A DNA stretch of 64,000 bases from Corynebacterium otitidis ATCC 51513. Lineage in GTDB: Bacteria; Actinomycetota; Actinomycetes; Mycobacteriales; Mycobacteriaceae. Positions 19,101 to 41,823 of the stretch are shown here, piece by piece. Under the pieces are notes generated by a model. It ran no database searches. It was not told the origin of the DNA and saw only the letters and a program-made list of their open reading frames with translations. The stretch's first letter is position 1, and each line of letters opens with the position of its first letter. The stretch covers positions 1 through 64,000 of the forward strand of contig NZ_JH815193.1 in assembly GCF_000296405.1 (NCBI RefSeq), given 5' to 3'. Position numbers and translations under genes: made by a program.

Positions 19101-19882
19101 TATTGCGCGGCGCGGCGCAGCACGAACGCGTCGGTGCGGTAGGGAAGCGCGACAGCCTCGTCCTCGCTGAGTCCCGTGTGCTCGAAGAAGTACCACTCGA
19201 GGTTCGACTCGACGCGGCTTCTTATCTCCTCGCCGGAGCGCAGCCAGTAGGAGCGGGTGCGGGTGAGCTCCACGAGGTCGGCGAAGGTCTTCTCCTGCGC
19301 CCAGCGCAGCCTCAGGGTCTCCGCGACGCGCCACGGCCCGGCGGTCTTCGGCACGAAGCCCTCGGCGAGCACGTCGCCGGAGTGCATGATCCGGGCGAGC
19401 CGAAGCACCCAGGGGTCCGCGACGTCGATGGTGTTCCACGCGAGCACGACGACCCCGCCGGGGCGCACCACCCGGTCGAGCTCCCGGCAGGCGGCGGCGT
19501 GCTCGAGCCAGTGCCACGTCTGCGCGCACGCCGCCGCGTCGACCGAGGCGTCGGCGAGCGGCAGCGCCTCGGCGCGGGCCCGCACCGCCGGAATACCCGC
19601 GCTGCCTCGAAGGAAGCCGGCCATCTCGGCGCTGGGGTCGAGGCCTAAGACCCGGTGGCCGCGCCTCGCGAGCGGCGCGGCGAGCTTGCCCGTGCCCGCG
19701 CCGACGTCGAGGACGACCTGTCGCCCTGAGAGCAGGTCGAGGACCTCGTCCGGGTAGCCGGGGCGCGCGTCGTCGTAGGCGCGGGGCGAGCCGACGAAGG
19801 CGCCGGCGGAGCGGGCGCGCTGCGCCGTGGAGCGGAAGCGCGGCTGCGCCTGCCGCGAGCGGCGGCCGGCCGGTTTAGCCAT
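19100..19882 (-). CDS. Class I SAM-dependent methyltransferase (UbiE/Methyltransf_11-like)
   Basis: 260 aa. The first 35 residues are basic. The SAM-binding motif I is VVLDVGAGTGKLAAPLARRG (about 55-75), motif II is LGLDPSAEM, and the PLADASVDAAACAQTWHWLE stretch is typical of the Methyltransf_11 fold. The substrate cannot be deduced. It is a single gene facing der, with no obvious partner. The adjacent siderophore locus points the other way across a 100-nt gap. Confidence 0.82.
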   Translation of the reverse strand: MAKPAGRRSRQAQPRFRSTAQRARSAGAFVGSPRAYDDARPGYPDEVLDLLSGRQVVLDVGAGTGKLAAPLARRGHRVLGLDPSAEMAGFLRGSAGIPAVRARAEALPLADASVDAAACAQTWHWLEHAAACRELDRVVRPGGVVVLAWNTIDVADPWVLRLARIMHSGDVLAEGFVPKTAGPWRVAETLRLRWAQEKTFADLVELTRTRSYWLRSGEEIRSRVESNLEWYFFEHTGLSEDEAVALPYRTDAFVLRRAAQ

Positions 19883-19940
19883 CGCTAACCACTCCCTGAG
19901 CTAGAGCTTTGGTTTCCTTGTGCATTCAAACAGAAGGATG

Positions 19941-19959
19941 ATAAGTTGAGGTAACGCTT
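19941..19959 (+). promoter_or_regulatory. Weak DtxR-box-like site upstream of the siderophore locus
   Basis: ATAAGTTGAGGTAACGCTT shares about 11 of 19 positions with the DtxR consensus TTAGGTTAGGCTAACCTAA, better in its left and centre than on the right. Iron control through DtxR would be expected for this operon, but the match is poor and may itself have degraded. Confidence 0.3.
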
Positions 19960-20937
19960 CAGAGGCCTAAGTTTATCTCAGTCGCCGCGGTGCTCACCGC
20001 CGGGGCGCTCGCGTTTTCCGGCTGCACGAACTCCGCGCAGCCCGCCGACGAGGGCTCGGGCGCGGCCGAGGGCCGCACCGTCGAGGGCCAGCTCGGCCCG
20101 GTGACCGTGCCTGAGAACGTCGAGTCCGTCGTCGTCCTCGAGGGGCGCCGCGACCTCGACATCGCGCTCTCCCTCGGGCTCCCGCTCGTGGGCTTCCCCT
20201 ACCAGGAGGAGGGCACCCACGACCTCGACGCGCCGTTCGCCGAGGAGCTCGCCGAGGCGGAGGACAACGGCGCCGAGCCGCTCTTCCTGCGCGAGGAGCC
20301 CAACGTCGAGGCGATCGCCGCCGCCGACCCGGACCTCATCATCAGCCGCGTCGACGACGTCGAGCCGCTGCGCGACGAGCTCGAGGCCGTCGCGCCGGTG
20401 CTCGCCATCGGCGACCAGAACGTCTCCACCTGGCAGGAGGACCTCAAGCTCGTCGCGGAGGCCACCGGCCGCGAGGACGAGGCCGAGCAGATTATCGCCG
20501 ACTACGAGGCGGAGGTCGCCTCGCTGCGCGAGGAGTTCGCCGAGGTCCTCGACCAGCACACCTTCGCGCCGATGGGCTACAACTCCGAGGAGATCAACGT
20601 CGCGCCCAACCGGCTGCTCTCCACCGTGCTGCGCGACCTCGAGGCCACCCCGTCCGAGGCGTTCGCCGACGCCATCGAGAAGGACGACGGCACCCAGTCC
20701 TACAGCCGCGAGCAGATCGTCGACGCGTTCGGCGACGCGGACGCGCTCATCGCGATCATCAACGACAAGGAGACCTGGGACGAGGCCAACGACAACGACC
20801 TCTTCAACCAGCTCCCCTCGGTCGAGGAGGGCCACGTCGTGCGCTCCGACCGGCAGACCCACGAGGGCGCGGCCCTGACCGCGAAGCACTGCCTCGAGCT
20901 CATCCGCGAGCTGCTCGAGACCTTCGAGGACGCCTAA
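19954..20937 (+). CDS. Siderophore-binding lipoprotein, start codon apparently lost
   Basis: An iron-siderophore substrate-binding protein (FecB/FepB type; PF01497-like) for the ABC importer encoded downstream. The lipobox is LAFSGC, followed by an acidic linker and the two-lobed binding domain (VESVVVLEGRRDLDIALSLG and PDLIISRVDDVEPL). The signal-peptide frame clearly extends upstream to LQRPKFISVAAVLTAG, but that segment has no ATG, GTG or TTG; an ACG at 19954 sits where an ATG would be expected. The first normal start is GTG 19990, which would leave a signal peptide without its basic end. Either the start has mutated or export is impaired. Confidence 0.75.
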   Translation, partial: TLQRPKFISVAAVLTAGALAFSGCTNSAQPADEGSGAAEGRTVEGQLGPVTVPENVESVVVLEGRRDLDIALSLGLPLVGFPYQEEGTHDLDAPFAEELAEAEDNGAEPLFLREEPNVEAIAAADPDLIISRVDDVEPLRDELEAVAPVLAIGDQNVSTWQEDLKLVAEATGREDEAEQIIADYEAEVASLREEFAEVLDQHTFAPMGYNSEEINVAPNRLLSTVLRDLEATPSEAFADAIEKDDGTQSYSREQIVDAFGDADALIAIINDKETWDEANDNDLFNQLPSVEEGHVVRSDRQTHEGAALTAKHCLELIRELLETFEDA

Positions 20938-20941
20938 GCCC

Positions 20942-21966
20942 GTGACCCGAACCGCCCACCCCGGCCCCAGGCTCGCGGCCGCCGGGCTCATCGGGGTTGG
21001 CGTCGTCGCGATCCTCGCGGCGGCGTCGGTCTTCGTCGGCGCCCGGGGCTTGAGCCCCGCCGAGGTCGTCGACGCGATCACCGGAGCCGGCACCCCGGAG
21101 GCCGCCGCGATCGTCGGGGGCCAGCGCGTGCCCCGCACGGTCGTCGGGCTCATCGGCGGCGCCGCGCTCGGCGTCGCCGGGGCGCTCATTCAGGGCCACA
21201 CGCGAAACCCGCTCGCCGACCCGGGGCTCCTCGGCGTCACCTCCGGCGCGTCGGTCGCGGTGGTCGTCGGGTTGTCCTTCTTCGGGCTCACCGGCAGCGC
21301 CGGGATCCTCATCTCCTCGCTGGTCGGCGCGGCCGCCGCGACGGTGCTCGTCGGGGTGCTGGGCGCGGTCGCGGGCCGCAAGCGCGACGCCTCGCCGGCC
21401 GCGCTCGTGCTCGCCGGCGCGGCGCTCTCGGCGTTCCTCGGCTCCGCGACGGGGATCCTTCTGCTCATGGACTCCTCGGCGCTCGACATCTTCCGCTTCT
21501 GGACGGTCCGCTCGCTGGCCTCCGGCTCGCGCACCGTCGACCTGCTGCCGCTCGTCGGCCCGCTGCTCGTCGCCGGCTTCCTTCTGGCGCTGCCGCAGCT
21601 GCGGGTGCTCGACGCGCTCGCGCTGGGGGAGGACACCGCCCGCTCGCTGGGCCGCAACCTCAAGTGGAGCAGGATCGCGGGCCTGGCGTCGATCGCGTCG
21701 CTCGCCGGCGGGGCGACGGCGATCATCGGCGCGGTCAGCTTCGTCGGGCTCGCCGCCCCGCACATCGTGCGCGGGCTCGTGGGCCGCGACTACCGGCTCG
21801 TCGTGCCGCTCTCCGCGCCCGTGGGCGCGGCGCTCGTGCTCGCCGCCGACATCATCGGCCGCATCGTCGTGCAGCCCGCGGAGCTTGCCGTCGGCGTCGT
21901 GCTCGGCATCGTCGGCGGGCCGGGTTCCTCCTGCTCGTCTACCGGCTATATCGGAGGCGCAAGTGA
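20942..21966 (+). pseudogene. Siderophore ABC permease 1 (FecCD family), frameshifted near its end
   Basis: About 340 aa of a FecCD permease with some nine or ten membrane segments; GAALGVAGALIQGHTRNPLADPGLLG is the family signature. After VVLGIVGGP the frame runs into unrelated residues and stops at 21991. One extra base in the G-run near 21922 would instead give GFLLLVYRLYRRRK and a stop at 21964-21966 that overlaps the GTG of the next permease (GTGA), exactly the normal end of this family. The simplest reading is a 1-bp deletion in the G-run. The last membrane helix would be lost, so the protein is probably impaired; a sequencing error is the alternative. Confidence 0.82.
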
Positions 21967-23045
21967 CCACTACCACCACGGCACCGGATAAGACGCCCGC
22001 GCCGCGGGTCGTGGCGCGCCGCCCGCAGCGCCTCACCCGCGGGCCGGTCGTGTGGGTCGCGGCGGCGGCCGCGCTCGTCCTCGCCGCGACGGTCGCGCTC
22101 GGGGCGGGGGACTACGGGCTTAGCCCCGACCGCATCCTCGCGACGCTCACCGGCCACGGCGAGCCGCTCGAGGAGCTCGTCGTCTACCAGCTGCGGCTGC
22201 CCAGGCTCGTGCTCGGGCTCGCGGTCGGCGCGATGCTGGGGATCTCCGGGGCGATCACGCAGACCACCGCGCGCAACGGCCTGGCCTCCCCGGACCTCCT
22301 CGGCGTCACCAACGGCGCGTCCGCGGGCGCGGTCGCCGTCATCGTGCTCGGCGGCGGCACCGGAAGCGAGCTCACCTCGGTGCTCGGCGGGCTCGGGGTG
22401 ACCGCCGCGGCGCTTATCGGCGGGCTCGTCTCCGCCGCGCTCGTCGGCGCGCTGCTCTACCTCACCAGCGGCGGGGCGCTGCAGGTCGTGCTCGTCGGCG
22501 TGGGCGTCTCCGCGTTCTTCAGCGGATTGACGAGCTGGCTGCTCGTCGAGGCCTCCATCGACGACGCGGAGCGCGCCTCCGCGTGACTCATGGGCTCGCT
22601 CGGCGGCGGGCGCAGCATGACCGAGGCGACCCTCGCCCTCGGGGCGCTCGCCGTCGCGGTGGCGATCCTCGTCCCCACCGCGCGGAGCCTCGGGGCGCTG
22701 CAGCTGGGCCGCGACCAGGCCACCGCGCTCGGCTACGACGTCGCGAAGAGCAGCGCCGCGGTGCTGCTCGCGGCGGTGATTCTCGCCTCCGTCGCGGCGG
22801 CCGTCGCCGGGCCCATCGGGTTCATCGCGCTGGTCGCGCCGCACGTCTCCCGGCTGGCGTCCGGCGCGCCGCGCGCTCCGCTGCCGCTCGTCGCCATCGT
22901 CGGGGCCGCGCTCGTCGTCGGCAGCGACGTCGTCGCGCGGCTCGTCATCGCCCCGCTCACCCTGCCCACCGGATCGGTCACCGCGCTCGTCGGCGCGCCG
23001 TTTCTGGTGTGGCTGCTCGTCAGAGACCGAAAGGCAGGTTCCTAA
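21963..23045 (+). pseudogene. Siderophore ABC permease 2 (FecCD family), in-frame stop
   Basis: The frame from GTG 21963 encodes a FecCD permease (MLGISGAITQTTARNGLASP) but hits TGA at 22584-22586 after DDAERASA, then continues in the same frame as LMGSLGGGRSMTEATLALG to 23045. Family members read WLxGSL here, so TGA replaces the conserved Trp codon TGG. Together the halves make a normal 360-aa permease. Without read-through, only the N-terminal 207 residues and possibly a 151-aa piece from ATG 22590 would be made. This is a second, independent lesion in the operon. Confidence 0.85.
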
Positions 23046-23051
23046 GTCACC

Positions 23052-23858
23052 ATGACCGCGACCACCACCACCGCGCTCGAGGCGAAGGGGCTGACCGTCC
23101 GCATCGACGGCAAGGAGATCCTCCACGGGATCTCCGCGGCCGTGCCGAGCGGCAAGATCACCGCGATCGTCGGGCCCAACGGCTCGGGCAAGTCGACGCT
23201 TCTGCGCTCCTGGTCGCGCCTGCAGCGCTACGCCGGGCACGCGACCGTCAACGGCGACGAGATCTCCCGGGTCAAGCCCAAGGACTTCGCGCGCCGCGTG
23301 GCGCTCTTGCCGCAGAGCCCGCTCGCCCCGGAGGGCCTGACCGTCGAGGGGCTTGTCTCCCGGGGCCGCGACCCGCACCGCCGCTGGTGGGAGCCGTGGC
23401 GCGAGTCCGACCGGGAGATCGTCGCCCACGCCCTGGAGCTCACCGACCTCTCCGAGCTTGCCGGCCGGGAGCTCGACTCGCTCTCCGGCGGGCAGCGGCA
23501 GCGCGCGTGGATCGCTCTCGCGCTCGCGCAGTCGACGGGCATCGTGCTCCTCGACGAGCCGACGAACTTCCTCGACATCACCTTCAAGCTCGAGGTGATG
23601 GACACCGTCAAGCGCCTCAACGAGGACACAGGGCTCACCGTCGCGATGGTGCTCCACGACCTCGACCTCGCGGCGCGCTACGCGGACAGGATCATCGTCG
23701 TCAACAACGGGGAGATCGCCGCCGAGGGCAGCCCCGCCGACGTCATCACCGAGCTCATCCTCGGCGAGGTCTTCGCCGTCGAGGCGAGCCTGCTCACCGA
23801 CCCCAGGAGCGGCTCCCCGGTCATCGCGCCCTACCGGCCGCTGCGCTCCCGCCACTAG
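23052..23858 (+). CDS. Siderophore ABC transporter ATPase (FecE/FepC type)
   Basis: 268 aa, apparently intact. Walker A is GPNGSGKST (about 36-44), the signature is LSGGQRQRAW, Walker B is GIVLLDEPTNFLD and the switch His is in MVLHDLDLAARY. It would energise the uptake of ferric siderophores through the two upstream permeases, both of which are damaged. Start ATG 23052, 6 nt after the permease stop. Confidence 0.93.
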   Translation: MTATTTTALEAKGLTVRIDGKEILHGISAAVPSGKITAIVGPNGSGKSTLLRSWSRLQRYAGHATVNGDEISRVKPKDFARRVALLPQSPLAPEGLTVEGLVSRGRDPHRRWWEPWRESDREIVAHALELTDLSELAGRELDSLSGGQRQRAWIALALAQSTGIVLLDEPTNFLDITFKLEVMDTVKRLNEDTGLTVAMVLHDLDLAARYADRIIVVNNGEIAAEGSPADVITELILGEVFAVEASLLTDPRSGSPVIAPYRPLRSRH

Positions 23859-24311
23859 GGGCGCCGGCCCGCTCCCCGGGGCCGAGGCAGGGGAGAGGCG
23901 CTTCCTCTCGGCGGAGCGGGGCTGCTCATATCTCTTCGTGCCTGGCGATGTCCGCGTCCTCTAGCGCGGGTAGGGATCCTCTCGACAGAAGCCCGCGCTC
24001 CGCGGGCTTCTTTGTTTGTTCGGGGAACGACCCGGTTACGACTCGTCGGCGCGGGCTCGCGGCCTGCGTCGTGGATCGACGAGGCCGCCGCTCGGGCCGC
24101 CCCGGAAGAGGAGGGGAACGGCTCGAAAGCGCCGCTGTATCCGCAGGTTGTCGGACGCGTTGCGCTCGTGTGTTCGAACCCAAAAGAGTCGCGTCCAACC
24201 GGGCTGGAAATATCCGGTGTGTCCACAAACCAGACACCGGGCGCGAGCGGGGATGACCGCCGCGACGCACCCCGGTCTTCCAGCCGGGCGACCGGCGAGA
24301 AAGGATCTCCC
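23859..24311. other. Gene-free stretch between the siderophore locus and the Ltp gene
   Basis: 453 nt without a convincing gene. It contains a terminator (23987-24019) and a small hairpin (CCGGTGT at 24214, ACACCGG at 24234). The frame of the Ltp gene stays open through the last 300 nt, but the translation has no signal, domain or ribosome site and the good start is ATG 24312. Confidence 0.6.
23987..24019 (+). terminator. Rho-independent terminator after the siderophore locus
   Basis: AGAAGCCCGCG, a 3-nt loop CTC, CGCGGGCTTCT, then TTGTTTGTT. It lies 130 nt after the ATPase gene and is one of the cleanest terminators in the window. Confidence 0.92.
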
Positions 24312-24773
24312 ATGACGATTCGACACCGTGCCCTCACCGCCGCGGCCGCGCTCGTGGCGCTGGCGTGCGCCGCCTGCGAGCCGGTCGACGACGCCTCCGA
24401 GCCGGCGGAGGATACCGCCGCCGAGGCCCAGGAGGTCGAGCAGGCCGACGCCGCCCCCGAGGCCGAGGATGTGCCCCGCGAGCACGCCGCGGCGCTGAAG
24501 CAGGCCGAGCGCTACATCGAGTTCTCGGCGTTCTCCGAGGCGGGCCTCTTCGAGCAGCTCACCAGCGAGTACGGCAGCGGCTTCCCGCCCGAGGCCGCGC
24601 AGTACGCGATCGACAACCTCGAGGTGGACTGGAACGAGCAGGCGCTGAAGCAGGCGAGGAGCTACCTCGAGACGTTCCCGATGAGCGACCAGGAGCTCCG
24701 GGAGCAGCTCATCAGCGAGTTCGGCGGCCAGTTCACCCCGGAGCAGGCCGACTACGCGCTCGCGAACCTCTAG
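24312..24773 (+). CDS. Ltp-family surface lipoprotein with two Ltp repeats
   Basis: 153 aa. A lipoprotein signal peptide (MTIRHRALTAAAALVALA, with Cys19 or Cys22 as the lipidated residue) precedes an acidic linker (about 25-60). Two copies of a roughly 45-residue helical repeat follow: ALKQAERYIEFSAFSEAGLF at about 60-105 and ALKQARSYLETFPMSDQEL at about 110-153. This is the PF07553 (host cell surface-exposed lipoprotein) pattern, named for the Ltp protein of Streptococcus phage TP-J34, which blocks DNA injection by other phages. Many Actinobacteria carry chromosomal copies of unknown role. RBS GAGAAAGGA is well placed. It lies on the 3' side of a tRNA-Pro gene. Confidence 0.85.
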   Translation: MTIRHRALTAAAALVALACAACEPVDDASEPAEDTAAEAQEVEQADAAPEAEDVPREHAAALKQAERYIEFSAFSEAGLFEQLTSEYGSGFPPEAAQYAIDNLEVDWNEQALKQARSYLETFPMSDQELREQLISEFGGQFTPEQADYALANL

Positions 24774-24828
24774 CGGCCCGGCGCCGCGGAAAGCGCCGCG
24801 CGGGAGGTAGGGAAACGGAAATAAGAAA

Positions 24829-24874
24829 ACAACGCGGGCCGCGACCCAGAAAGTGGGCGCGACCCGCGTCGTTG
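24829..24874 (-). terminator. Terminator of the tRNA-Pro gene
   Basis: A long imperfect hairpin (ACGCGGG/CCCGCGT, CGCG/CGCG, CCCA/TGGG). Read on the minus strand it is followed by GTTGTTTTCTTATTT, so it most likely ends the tRNA transcript. Confidence 0.78.
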
Positions 24875-24884
24875 CAATAGAAAA

Positions 24885-24961
24885 TGGTCGGACTGACAGG
24901 ATTTGAACCTGCGACCCCTACACCCCCAGTGTAGTGCGCTACCAAGCTGCGCCACAGTCCG
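24885..24961 (-). tRNA. tRNA-Pro (anticodon GGG)
   Basis: 77 nt including an encoded CCA end. The acceptor stem CGGACTG pairs with CAGTCCG, the D arm is GCGCAGCTTGGTAGCGC, the anticodon stem CTACA/TGTAG encloses the loop CTGGGGG, and the T arm holds GGTTCAAATCC. The loop gives anticodon GGG, which reads CCC and CCU. Confidence 0.96.
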
Positions 24962-25171
24962 CCGCCGCCCTTTCAGCGACGGGAGAGACTGTAGCCCACC
25001 GTCCCCGGTTCTTAAAAAACCCGCAGGCCAACGGGGCCTAACCCGGCGCCGGGCCCGGCCTTCGATAGAGTTTGTCGATGGCGCACCCGCGCGGCCCGCC
25101 GGCCGCGCACCGGTGCAATTGTCAGCAACCTCGCACGTCGTCGGCAGGGAGGCGGATTCCAGGTGGCAAGG

Positions 25172-38136: not shown

Positions 38137-39189
38137 TTATTCCTCCGACGACCGCTCGTAAGCCAGCGCGCCGTCGACGACGAGGCCCACGGGCTCGCCC
38201 TCGACCGGGCGGCGGGTCCCGGCGTCGGCCCGAAAGGTCTCGCCGCCGGCGAGCACCGTGGCGCTGTAGCCGCGCCCCGTAAAGAGGGCAGAGGAAATAA
38301 TCCCCCGCAGCGCGCCGGGCTCCTCCGGCGAGACCAGCCGGGTGTGCGTCGCGGTGAGCGCGAGCGTCATCGCCGCCGCCCGCGGCGCGCCGTCGAGCCG
38401 AGCCACGGGCAGGCGCAGCGCCCCGCCCAACGCCACCGCCTCATCGCCCTCGCGGGCGGCGGGAACGAGGGTGGCGTCCGCGATGAACTGCGCCACCGCG
38501 GAGCTCGCCGGGCGCTCCAGCAGTTCGGCCGGGGTCGCGAGCTGGCGGAGACGCCCCTCAGAGAGCACCGCCACCCGGTCACCCAGCGCCAACGCCTCCG
38601 AGCGGTCGTGCGTGACGTGGATGGCGGTGAGCCCCTCGCGCTTGGTCAAACCCACGAGCTCACGCCGCAGCGCGTCGCGCAGCGGCTCGTCGAGGGCCGA
38701 CAGCGCCTCGTCGAAGAGCAGCACCAAGGGCTGGGCGACCACCGCACGCGCCAGCGCCACCCGCTGCCGCTGTCCACCGGAAAGCTGCTCCGGGCGGCGC
38801 CGCCCTAGGCCGGGCAGCCCCACGAGCCGAAGTACCCGCTCCACGCGCTCGGCGACCTCGCCGCGCGGCAGTCTACGGCGCTCCAAGGGATACGCGATGT
38901 TCTTCGCCACGCTCAGGTGCGGCCAGACGGCGTGCGACTGGAAGACCATGCCGATCTCTCGGCGCTCGGGAGGAAGCCCGGTCACGTCGCGCCCGGCGAT
39001 CGAGACCGATCCTGCGCTGGGCTGCGCGAAGCCCGCGACGGCCCGCAGCAGCGTCGTCTTGCCCGAGCCCGAGGGCCCCACCAGCGTGAGAAACTCGTGC
39101 GGCTCGACGGCCATCGAGACCCCGTCGACGCCCAGGGTGCCGTCGGGGAACTCGACCTGAAGACCCGCGATGTCGATGGCGGGAGTCAT
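38137..39189 (-). CDS. fbpC: Ferric-iron-type ABC transporter ATPase (FbpC)
   Basis: 350 aa. Walker A GPSGSGKTT (about 37-45), Q-loop VFQSHAVWPHLSV, signature LSGGQRQRVALARA, Walker B VLLFDEALSALD (the usual P after DE is A), and a C-terminal TOBE-like regulatory domain (about 245-350). The domain set fits FbpC/PotA-type importers. The ATG overlaps the permease stop (ATGA). Iron is inferred from the binding-protein type; thiamine or polyamine cannot be excluded from this subunit alone. Confidence 0.88.
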   Translation of the reverse strand: MTPAIDIAGLQVEFPDGTLGVDGVSMAVEPHEFLTLVGPSGSGKTTLLRAVAGFAQPSAGSVSIAGRDVTGLPPERREIGMVFQSHAVWPHLSVAKNIAYPLERRRLPRGEVAERVERVLRLVGLPGLGRRRPEQLSGGQRQRVALARAVVAQPLVLLFDEALSALDEPLRDALRRELVGLTKREGLTAIHVTHDRSEALALGDRVAVLSEGRLRQLATPAELLERPASSAVAQFIADATLVPAAREGDEAVALGGALRLPVARLDGAPRAAAMTLALTATHTRLVSPEEPGALRGIISSALFTGRGYSATVLAGGETFRADAGTRRPVEGEPVGLVVDGALAYERSSEE

Positions 39190-40808
39190 GCTCTGCTCGC
39201 TCCTTTCTTCGTCCCTCGGCCCGGCGACCGGACCACGAGAGCCAGCGCGGCGACCCCCACCACAGCGAAAAGCAGCGCGAGGGCGGCGGCCTGGTTATAG
39301 TTGCCCGCCTGCTGCAGGTTAAATAGCTGCACCCCCAGCGTGGTCGAACCCGGAGCGATGAGCAGCACCGACACCGTGAGCTCCCGCACCGCGGTGACGG
39401 CCACGAGCGCGGCGCCCGCGACCGCGGCGGGCAGCGCCAGCGCCCCGGTGGTGCTCAGCAGCGCGCGCAGCTCCCCGGCGCCGGCGACGCGGGCGGCCTC
39501 CTCGAAGGCCGCGGGGCTCGAGGAGAGCGGGCCGCGCACCGCCTGCACCACCAGGGCGGTGAACGCACAGACGTAAGCGCCGAGAATCACCCAGTGGGTG
39601 TTATAGATCCCGGTGTAGCGCCCGAGGATCAGCCAGCCCACGCCGATGATGAGGCCCGGCAGCGCGGTAGGCAGCAGGACGGTGAGGGTGAGGGCGACGT
39701 TGCTGCGCGCCGGCACGCGCGTGGTTACCAGCGCGATGAGCCAGCCCAGTGCTCCGCAGATGAGTGCCGCCGAGAGCGCCAGGGTCACCGAGGTGGCGAT
39801 GGCCTGGCTGGTGCGCGGGTTGGTGAGCGCGGCCGTGAAATTGCCCAGGGAGATGGTCTCCAAAGTGAACGGCACGCCGGGCGCGGGCAGCAGGGCTCGA
39901 TAGACGAGCGCGAGGATCGGGGCGAGCGTCGCGGTCAGCCCGAGCACCCAGCCGACGACCGTGGCCGGCAGCCGCAGGGCCCCGAGCCTGGTGATCGCCG
40001 CGGCACCGCCGTCGGAGCGAGACCGGCCGGCGCGCCGGGACACCACGAAGTCCGCGATGACCGCCACCACGCCCAGGACCAGCAGCACCACGCCGATGGT
40101 GGAGACCGTCTGCAGCGGGTTGGACACGGTGCCGGACTCCATGAAGCGGTACATCATCGTGGCGAGGGTCTCGACGCCCGCGGGAGAACCGATAATCGCC
40201 GGGATCCCGAAGTCCGCGAGGTTGGCGACCGCTGTGAGGGTGAAGGCGCTCAGCAGCGCGGGGCGCAGCAGCGGGAGCGTCACGGTGCGCAGCACGGTAA
40301 ATGGCCCGGCCCCGGAGAGCGCGGCGGCCTGCTCGAGGTCGGCGGGGATGGCTCGCAGGCCCGCGGAGACCACGACGTAGACGATGGGGTAGGAGTGCAG
40401 CGTGAGCAGGACAATCACGCCGTCGAGGCCGTAGATATTCCACAGCTCGCCCTCGACCAGCCGGTTGATGCCCTGGTTGGGCCCGGCGAGCTGCAGCCAG
40501 GCGATCGCCCCGACGAACGGCGGCATGACGAGCGGGGAGAGGAGCAGCAGGCGCAGGGGCCCGGAGCCGTAGGCGTCGGAGTGGTCGAGCAGGAGCGCCA
40601 CGGCCGTTCCGATGACGACCGCGAGGACGGCCGAGACCGTCGTCGAGATCAGCGAGTTGAGCGCCGCCTCGCCCAGGCCCCTCGACAGCAGCTCGGGCAG
40701 TTGATTGCCGCCAAGCGCGAGGCTGATGACTAGGCCCAAGGGCGTGAGGATCACGCCCGCGACGACCAGCCACAGGGCGAGGCGCAGCAGGCTAACCCTT
40801 GACGGCAT
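39186..40808 (-). CDS. fbpB: Ferric-iron-type ABC permease (FbpB), double-length
   Basis: 540 aa with about 12 membrane segments and two internally related halves. Each half has a BPD_transp_1 EAA loop (LEQAAALSGAGPFTVLRTVT and FEEAARVAGAGELRALLSTT). Fused permeases of this kind are typical of FbpB. The ATG lies 17 nt inside the end of the binding-protein gene, a strong sign of co-transcription. Confidence 0.92.
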   Translation of the reverse strand: MPSRVSLLRLALWLVVAGVILTPLGLVISLALGGNQLPELLSRGLGEAALNSLISTTVSAVLAVVIGTAVALLLDHSDAYGSGPLRLLLLSPLVMPPFVGAIAWLQLAGPNQGINRLVEGELWNIYGLDGVIVLLTLHSYPIVYVVVSAGLRAIPADLEQAAALSGAGPFTVLRTVTLPLLRPALLSAFTLTAVANLADFGIPAIIGSPAGVETLATMMYRFMESGTVSNPLQTVSTIGVVLLVLGVVAVIADFVVSRRAGRSRSDGGAAAITRLGALRLPATVVGWVLGLTATLAPILALVYRALLPAPGVPFTLETISLGNFTAALTNPRTSQAIATSVTLALSAALICGALGWLIALVTTRVPARSNVALTLTVLLPTALPGLIIGVGWLILGRYTGIYNTHWVILGAYVCAFTALVVQAVRGPLSSSPAAFEEAARVAGAGELRALLSTTGALALPAAVAGAALVAVTAVRELTVSVLLIAPGSTTLGVQLFNLQQAGNYNQAAALALLFAVVGVAALALVVRSPGRGTKKGASRA

Positions 40809-41823
40809 CCTGGAACGCCTCGACGGCGGCCTCCTGGTCGCGGGTGACGGCCTCCAGATCCGGGGTGAGGAGCTCGATCTCGCTGAGCGCGGCGGCTCCC
40901 TCCGGGGTGCCGGCGTCCTCGCGCACGGGAAGGTAGTTCTGTTCCACGGCGAGCCCCTGGCCCTCGAGGGAGATGAGGAACTCGAGGTACTTCTTCGCGG
41001 CGTCCTGGTTCTTCGAGTCGGCGAAGATGCCCGCGGGCTCGGTGACGAAGGGGGCGCCCTCCTCGGGGTAGATCACCTCGACGGGGGAGCCCTGCTCCTT
41101 GAGGTCGCGCGCCAGGTAGTCGACGAAGACGCCGTAGGGGTGCCCGCCGGAGGCGACCTCCTGCGAGGTGGGGCCGTTCGACTCCGCGATCATCGGGGAG
41201 TTTTCGCCCAGCGCCTCGAACCAGTCGTCCCCGAGGGAGGGCTCGTTCCGCCACACACTCGCGTTGAAGGCCGCGGCCCCGGACACCGCCGGGTCCGGCA
41301 TGACGATCTGGTCCTGGTACTTCGGGTCGGCGAGGTCCTGCCAGGAGCTCGGGCGGTCGGCCTCCTCCGTCTCGTTCTCGTTGTAGGCGATGACGGTCGG
41401 GATAATCCGGGTGCCGACGTAGTTCTCGGTGCCGCGGGCCTCCTCGATGACCTCGGAGGTGTCGAGATCGCTGATATCGGCGAGCACCCCGTCCTCGGCG
41501 TAGGTATCGAAGGTCGCGGAGTCGGCGGCCCAGAGGATATCCGCGCCGATCTCCCCGGCCTGCTGCTCGGCGGCGATGCGGGCCTTGAGGTCCCCGGTGC
41601 CGGCCCGGTAGACCTCGACGTCGATGTCCGGGTTCTGCTCGGTGAAGGCGGCGTTGATCTCGTCGACCTTGTCCTCGGGCTCGGACGTGTAGACGGTGAG
41701 GGTGACGGTCTCGTCGCCCGAGGCGGTGTCGGTGGGTTCGGGGTCGGCTGCGGGCTCGGAGCAGGCGGCGAGGGTGAGGGCACCGCACGCCGCGACGGCG
41801 GCGGTGAGGGGACGAAGGCTCAT
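40792..41823 (-). CDS. fbpA: Ferric-iron-binding lipoprotein (FbpA)
   Basis: 343 aa. Lipoprotein signal peptide (SLRPLTAAVAACGALTLAAC, lipid on Cys21), then an acidic linker and a type II periplasmic-binding domain: VTLTVYTSEPEDKVDEINAA, ADILWAADSATFDTYAEDGV, FVTEPAGIFADSKNQDAAKK and LPVREDAGTP. The Fbp family carries ferric ions or ferric-citrate-like chelates. RBS GAGGAG is 6 nt from ATG 41823. No DtxR box could be recognised upstream. Confidence 0.88.
   Translation of the reverse strand: MSLRPLTAAVAACGALTLAACSEPAADPEPTDTASGDETVTLTVYTSEPEDKVDEINAAFTEQNPDIDVEVYRAGTGDLKARIAAEQQAGEIGADILWAADSATFDTYAEDGVLADISDLDTSEVIEEARGTENYVGTRIIPTVIAYNENETEEADRPSSWQDLADPKYQDQIVMPDPAVSGAAAFNASVWRNEPSLGDDWFEALGENSPMIAESNGPTSQEVASGGHPYGVFVDYLARDLKEQGSPVEVIYPEEGAPFVTEPAGIFADSKNQDAAKKYLEFLISLEGQGLAVEQNYLPVREDAGTPEGAAALSEIELLTPDLEAVTRDQEAAVEAFQDAVKG

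Follow-up and report, generated by a model that had tools for sequence, protein, structure and literature searches.

An in-frame TGA at a conserved tryptophan of a FecCD permease in a probably decaying siderophore importer operon of Corynebacterium otitidis

Introduction

The closest described relatives of the locus considered here are ABC importers of siderophores, vitamin B12 or haem with permeases of the FecCD family (PF01032), among them FepD/FepG, FhuB, BtuC and HmuU. Two further systems bear on an in-frame TGA. Corynebacterium aurimucosum ATCC 700975 carries selABCD and a selenocysteine-containing formate dehydrogenase (FDH) and inserts selenocysteine, as described in PMC2830990. The reading of UGA has been linked to a 4-bp anticodon stem and to the changes A9C and G24A of tRNA-Trp (PMC13092985).

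The DNA analysed, hereafter the window, is a stretch of 64,000 nucleotides from Corynebacterium otitidis ATCC 51513 (NZ_JH815193.1, positions 1 to 64,000). Its contig breaks at an rRNA operon: it opens with a 23S rRNA gene that lacks its 5' end (1-2539), and a 5S rRNA gene (2661-2778) follows. The window encodes a siderophore importer of the FecCD type in which one permease gene is interrupted by TGA.

Operon architecture and orthologues

The importer is encoded by a four-gene operon at 19.9-23.9 kb on the plus strand that comprises a siderophore-binding lipoprotein with a Peripla_BP_2 domain, two FecCD permeases and an ABC ATPase. The lipoprotein gene (19945-20937) scores 71.6 bits against Peripla_BP_2, and its product is 57% identical to the orthologue of G151, a genome of the same genus. 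Permease 1 (20942-21991) covers FecCD profile positions 2-303 of 311, and permease 2 (21963-23045) contains a single internal TGA. The ATPase gene (23052-23858) has FecE and enterobactin-type proteins as its nearest NCBIfam models, with scores under the curated cut-offs; in a search of genome contigs, the ATPases among the matches listed were at most 48% identical. Just 3' of the ATPase (24312-24773) lies a gene for an Ltp-type host cell surface-exposed lipoprotein with two stretches of PF07553. The best local plus-strand match to a DtxR box consensus has 11 of 19 positions (19875-19893), compared with 12 of 19 elsewhere in the window.

All four genes are found in the same order in G151 and in two genomes from another family of the order, G324 and G391. 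Identities between the window's genes and their nearest orthologues range from 52 to 60%. None of the three orthologous operons has an internal stop, and the C-terminus of permease 1 is full-length in each of them.

An in-frame TGA at a tryptophan column of permease 2

The first-pass annotation described permease 2 as one frame with a single interruption, and this proved correct: between the GTG at 21963 and the terminal stop at 23043-23045 there is exactly one internal stop, the TGA at 22584-22586. It takes the place of residue 208 of 360, in the context ...DDAERASA*LMGSLGGG..., and the transmembrane helices are consequently not all encoded by a single uninterrupted frame. Residues 1-207 match PF01032 profile positions 2-159 with 117.5 bits, and the sequence beyond the TGA matches positions 167-311 with 122.4 bits, both far above the cut-off of 26.5. 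The read-through sequence reaches 248.3 bits against the same gathering score. One half thus takes up the FecCD profile about where the other leaves off, which places the TGA inside one gene. The genomic context is also that of a FecCD permease, with a binding protein, a second permease and an ATPase alongside.

The TGA had been placed at a conserved tryptophan, and an alignment of 36 rows, one of which is the window itself with its stop, bears this out. All 35 other FecCD rows carry Trp at the column; they represent 33 distinct genes because two genes were each seen twice (L001/L004 and L005/L008). A separate alignment shows Trp at this column in the permease 2 orthologues of G324 and G391 too. 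The surrounding WLxGSL motif, as originally written, was too strict: the tryptophan is conserved, but the motif actually reads W-[L/M/Q/T]-x-G-[S/R]-L. There are ten FecCD matches in the 2.12-Mb genome, and only permease 2 has an internal stop. Among the matches listed from other genomes, those of G145 and G120 also show a stop within the FecCD match, but in these the stop either precedes the permease or falls at its N-terminal edge.

Lesions in permease 1 and the binding protein

Two of the neighbouring genes look damaged as well. Permease 1 loses its frame after 21922. In the three orthologues the protein runs 14 residues beyond a GGP motif, and in the window an unrelated tail of 22 residues stands in place of these 14. 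The matching C-terminus, FLLLVYRLYRRRK, is encoded in another frame (21923-21966) at the end of an ORF spanning 21664-21966, where it stops at a TGA that overlaps the start of permease 2.

The binding-protein gene has a start-codon problem. Reading all three frames of 19920-20050 revealed no in-frame ATG, GTG or TTG between the stop at 19942 and a GTG at 19990. This GTG already falls among the hydrophobic residues of the signal peptide, and starting there removes the charged n-region; the G151 binding protein, unlike that of the window, has an ATG start. All three lesions fall in a span of about 2.6 kb of the operon. Lesions in three of the four genes, as first suggested, are borne out by the comparison with three intact orthologous operons, and the ATPase (23052-23858) is intact, as had been stated.

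Predicted consequence and redundancy

Translation of permease 2 would end after 207 residues, about half of a protein that we take to have ten helices, like BtuC. The product would end midway through the membrane domain and lack everything beyond, GPIGFIALVAPH at residue 283 among it. This is the position of the conserved GPxGFxxLxxPH segment, which by analogy with BtuC presumably contacts the ATPase. No working transporter would be made. The loss might be tolerable because the genome has further FecCD genes at four places outside the operon: there are eight strong FecCD matches, of which the six outside the operon are stop-free and distributed over these four places, plus two weak ones.

The first-pass annotation instead suggested that an FbpABC importer may have made the operon dispensable. 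An importer with this gene architecture is indeed present and intact at 38137-41823, with an ATPase (38137-39189), a permease (39186-40808) and a binding protein (40792-41823). Its causal role does not follow, however, and the FecCD genes elsewhere could account for redundancy at least as well.

Decay or assembly error

The TGA is probably a true premature stop, one of three lesions in an importer operon undergoing decay in this lineage. The clustering of the three lesions favours decay over random error. The damaged genes show no sign of accelerated divergence, and the case for decay accordingly comes from the lesions themselves. Substitutions found only in the window, compared with those found only in G151, number 44 and 30 for permease 2, 64 and 35 for permease 1, 38 and 29 for the binding protein, and 37 and 30 for the ATPase. 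Relative to the ATPase, Fisher p-values are 0.73, 0.26 and 1.0 for permease 2, permease 1 and the binding protein, respectively. Within permease 2, window-only changes affect 19 of 169 columns before the TGA and 25 of 151 after it (p 0.19). An older decay revealed by excess substitution was considered and set aside, as no comparison with the ATPase was significant (all p > 0.25).

The decay had been called recent. The single stop, the absence of a significant substitution excess and the maintained G+C at codon position 3 of permease 2 (0.966 before the TGA, 0.947 after) agree with this, but the same signs fit an undamaged gene with assembly errors equally well. With orthologues only 52-60% identical, the timing of each lesion cannot be placed.

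Sequencing or assembly errors, by which the operon would be intact in the organism and the draft wrong at up to three positions, are an unlikely explanation, though the best placed of the alternatives. The assembly is a draft of six contigs, and runs of N (gaps or masking) occur in 11 of the 20 stretches sampled, none of them in the window. Codon composition stays normal past the stop and divergence is not in excess, as would be the case for a functional gene. Errors should scatter, yet the lesions cluster. Translation of 15 window genes gave no internal stop, and comparison with three relatives returned stops in only 3 of the 42 best window stretches; one of these is an antisense shadow of intact genes, and in the other two the stop sits close to the end of the alignment, 6 and 11 residues away.

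Scans by codon usage covered 436 kb in 20 stretches, or 20.6% of the genome, at a sample G+C of 0.71. The stricter scan, which misses the TGA of the FDH gene, detected 16 in-frame stops flanked by coding signal. Nine of them precede an apparent start of the next gene by a few codons and six are low-scoring; the stop in permease 2 is the one that homology places within a gene, which counts against the error explanation. A homology survey for frameshifts was noisy from antisense ORFs (12 frame-split query pairs), and frameshifts may occur elsewhere.

Translational bypass of the stop

A second alternative is that the stop is bypassed in translation. UGA could be read by tRNA-Trp, or translation could restart at the ATG that begins 3 bases 3' of the stop, one codon on, and either event would keep some permease function. 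Near-cognate read-through would restore the ancestral protein, given that relatives have Trp at this position, and a restart could yield the product of a 151-codon ORF (22590-23045). FecCD signatures are kept in both halves of permease 2. In E. coli, a C directly after UGA makes the stop leaky; some full-length product may accordingly be made here, and some basal leakiness of UGA is possible. By eye, however, the restart ATG is without a good ribosome-binding site.

TGA is also rare as a terminal stop in this genome, which could hint at weak termination at UGA. Of 50 homology-supported genes in 80 kb (the window and the next 16 kb), 7 end in TGA, and a count based on codon usage only gives 34 of 259, a measure that is unreliable for relatives, in several of which few genes were found. 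The homology-supported frequencies in relatives vary widely: 7/47 in G192, 27/42 in G048, 12/27 in G155, 3/17 in G093 and 4/20 in G105. TGA is the commonest terminal stop in G048, although this genome and the window's own (G000) both have about 71% G+C. Because G192 is equally TGA-poor, the low use of terminal TGA is not peculiar to the window's genome.

The tRNA-Trp gene (C4:100020-100095), the single match to the CCA-tRNA pattern, argues against efficient reading of UGA. Its anticodon stem has five pairs, from 27A-43U to 31U-39A, and there is a G at position 24 and at position 9 (in our own numbering). Neither the 4-bp stem nor A9C nor G24A is present in it, and A27:U43 and G24 are not the forms tied to UGA reading. 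A search for further tRNAs with a UCA anticodon returned no pattern matches, a weak negative, since the same pattern misses the known tRNA-Sec. In the softer codon-usage scan, just two TGAs in the 436 kb have coding signal on both sides, namely those of permease 2 and the FDH selenocysteine codon, which indicates that TGA is not generally sense and that read-through is not general. A code with UGA as Trp or a suppressor tRNA is therefore unsupported, by the CCA tRNA-Trp with its 5-bp stem, by the scan for intragenic TGAs and by the use of TGA to end 7 of the 50 homology-supported genes.

Two more bypass events would be needed, one for the start of the binding protein and one for the frame of permease 1, and we regard bypass as very improbable. 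Even less credible is an operon still in use, in which UGA read-through or stop-restart, the permease 1 frameshift and the non-canonical start of the binding protein throttle the importer; it would combine three recoding events within a single operon, in a genome with few terminal TGAs. The preferred reading is still a premature stop in a decaying operon.

Selenocysteine machinery and the permease TGA

The first-pass annotation overlooked that this genome possesses selenocysteine machinery, which had to be tested before the TGA was called a lesion; the test was negative. The machinery is encoded outside the window (G000:C2:490411-502257; L152, L162, L170 and L209) and includes SelB, SelA, tRNA-Sec and an FDH with one in-frame TGA, followed by a SECIS hairpin with a GGUCU loop. 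The tRNA-Sec has a UCA anticodon and scores 78.9 bits (cut-off 47), SelA scores 384.2 bits, and SelB, matched along profile positions 2-339 of 581, scores 279.7 bits (cut-off 242.25). The genome thus very probably decodes one UGA, that of FDH, as selenocysteine. SelA exceeds the cut-off in 78 of the 242 genomes of the genus, the window's own included. In G088, two FDH matches with an internal TGA each (C1:1053173-1053922 and 1062994-1063734) lie about 10 kb apart and may be a duplicated Sec-FDH.

A SECIS covariance model was built from the 48 bases that start at the FDH TGA, aligned for 19 genomes of the genus. A total of 20 FDH stretches had been fetched, and L215 (G112), a minus-strand match with one TGA in it, was left out of the model; it provides no counter-example. 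The model gives 77.9 bits at the genome's own FDH, a score that is high by construction because this site is in the model, and -0.4 bits at the permease TGA. Six other sites within the same 401 bases outscore the permease TGA. Selenocysteine insertion through an FDH-like SECIS, the type covered by the model, is thereby rejected. A GC-rich hairpin can be drawn 3' of the permease TGA, but its stability does not exceed that of shuffled sequence (z-scores at three lengths: 0.12, -0.79 and -0.51). The GU that all 19 FDH sites carry in the loop is missing from it. Rfam returned four matches on 19850-24300 at E up to 5, none at the gathering score.

That the permease 2 UGA encodes selenocysteine in a novel selenoprotein has a negligible chance of being right, despite the tRNA-Sec, SelA, SelB and Sec-type FDH of this genome, given the SECIS score, the hairpin and the presence of Trp, not Cys, at this column in relatives.

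Distribution and genomic location

The operon has few counterparts. Among the 241 other genomes of the genus, permease 2 has one close counterpart, that of G151 (54% identity, E 2.5e-98), and beyond it no match at E <= 1e-66. A search with the binding protein across 298 genomes of the order, the window's own included, recovered G324 and G391 at 59-60% identity and, more weakly, G405 at 44%. In the 13 kb fetched from G405, the binding protein is the sole match to the operon.

The window operon sits between a methyltransferase gene and secA2 (interval 19882-25163). The surroundings in G151 differ, as der, the methyltransferase and secA2 are unmatched among the 12 G151 ORFs compared. In all five relatives whose methyltransferase-secA2 interval was compared (G048, G192, G155, G093 and G105), neither the binding protein nor permease 1 finds a match within it, and the ATPase query meets only other ABC ATPases at 28-31% identity. 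The interval measures 5.5-13.6 kb in these relatives and also differs in content, which may mark a hot spot for insertions. The variable interval and the scarcity of operon matches together mark the importer as a sporadic accessory module.

Comparison with known systems

The window's genome shares tRNA-Sec, SelA, SelB and an FDH with an in-frame TGA with the selenocysteine system of C. aurimucosum. The permease TGA is not a member of such a system: unlike the Sec-FDH codon, it has no FDH-like SECIS and falls at a Trp column. We conclude that wherever a genome encodes a selenocysteine system, any in-frame TGA needs a SECIS test before it is called a lesion.

The likeness to FecCD importers is clear. 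With X at the stop, the read-through sequence of permease 2 matches the FhuB, HmuU and BtuC chains in the PDB. The nearest NCBIfam models of its halves include enterobactin, dicitrate and hydroxamate permeases, and the halves, scored apart, fall under the NCBIfam cut-offs shown, short of an assignment to one siderophore. For annotation, the operon fits a pseudogene label, or a resequencing check, and not that of a working siderophore importer. Set against the FecCD permeases, the window's gene is one broken by a TGA at an invariant Trp, and the locus is most likely an ordinary siderophore importer that has recently decayed into pseudogenes.
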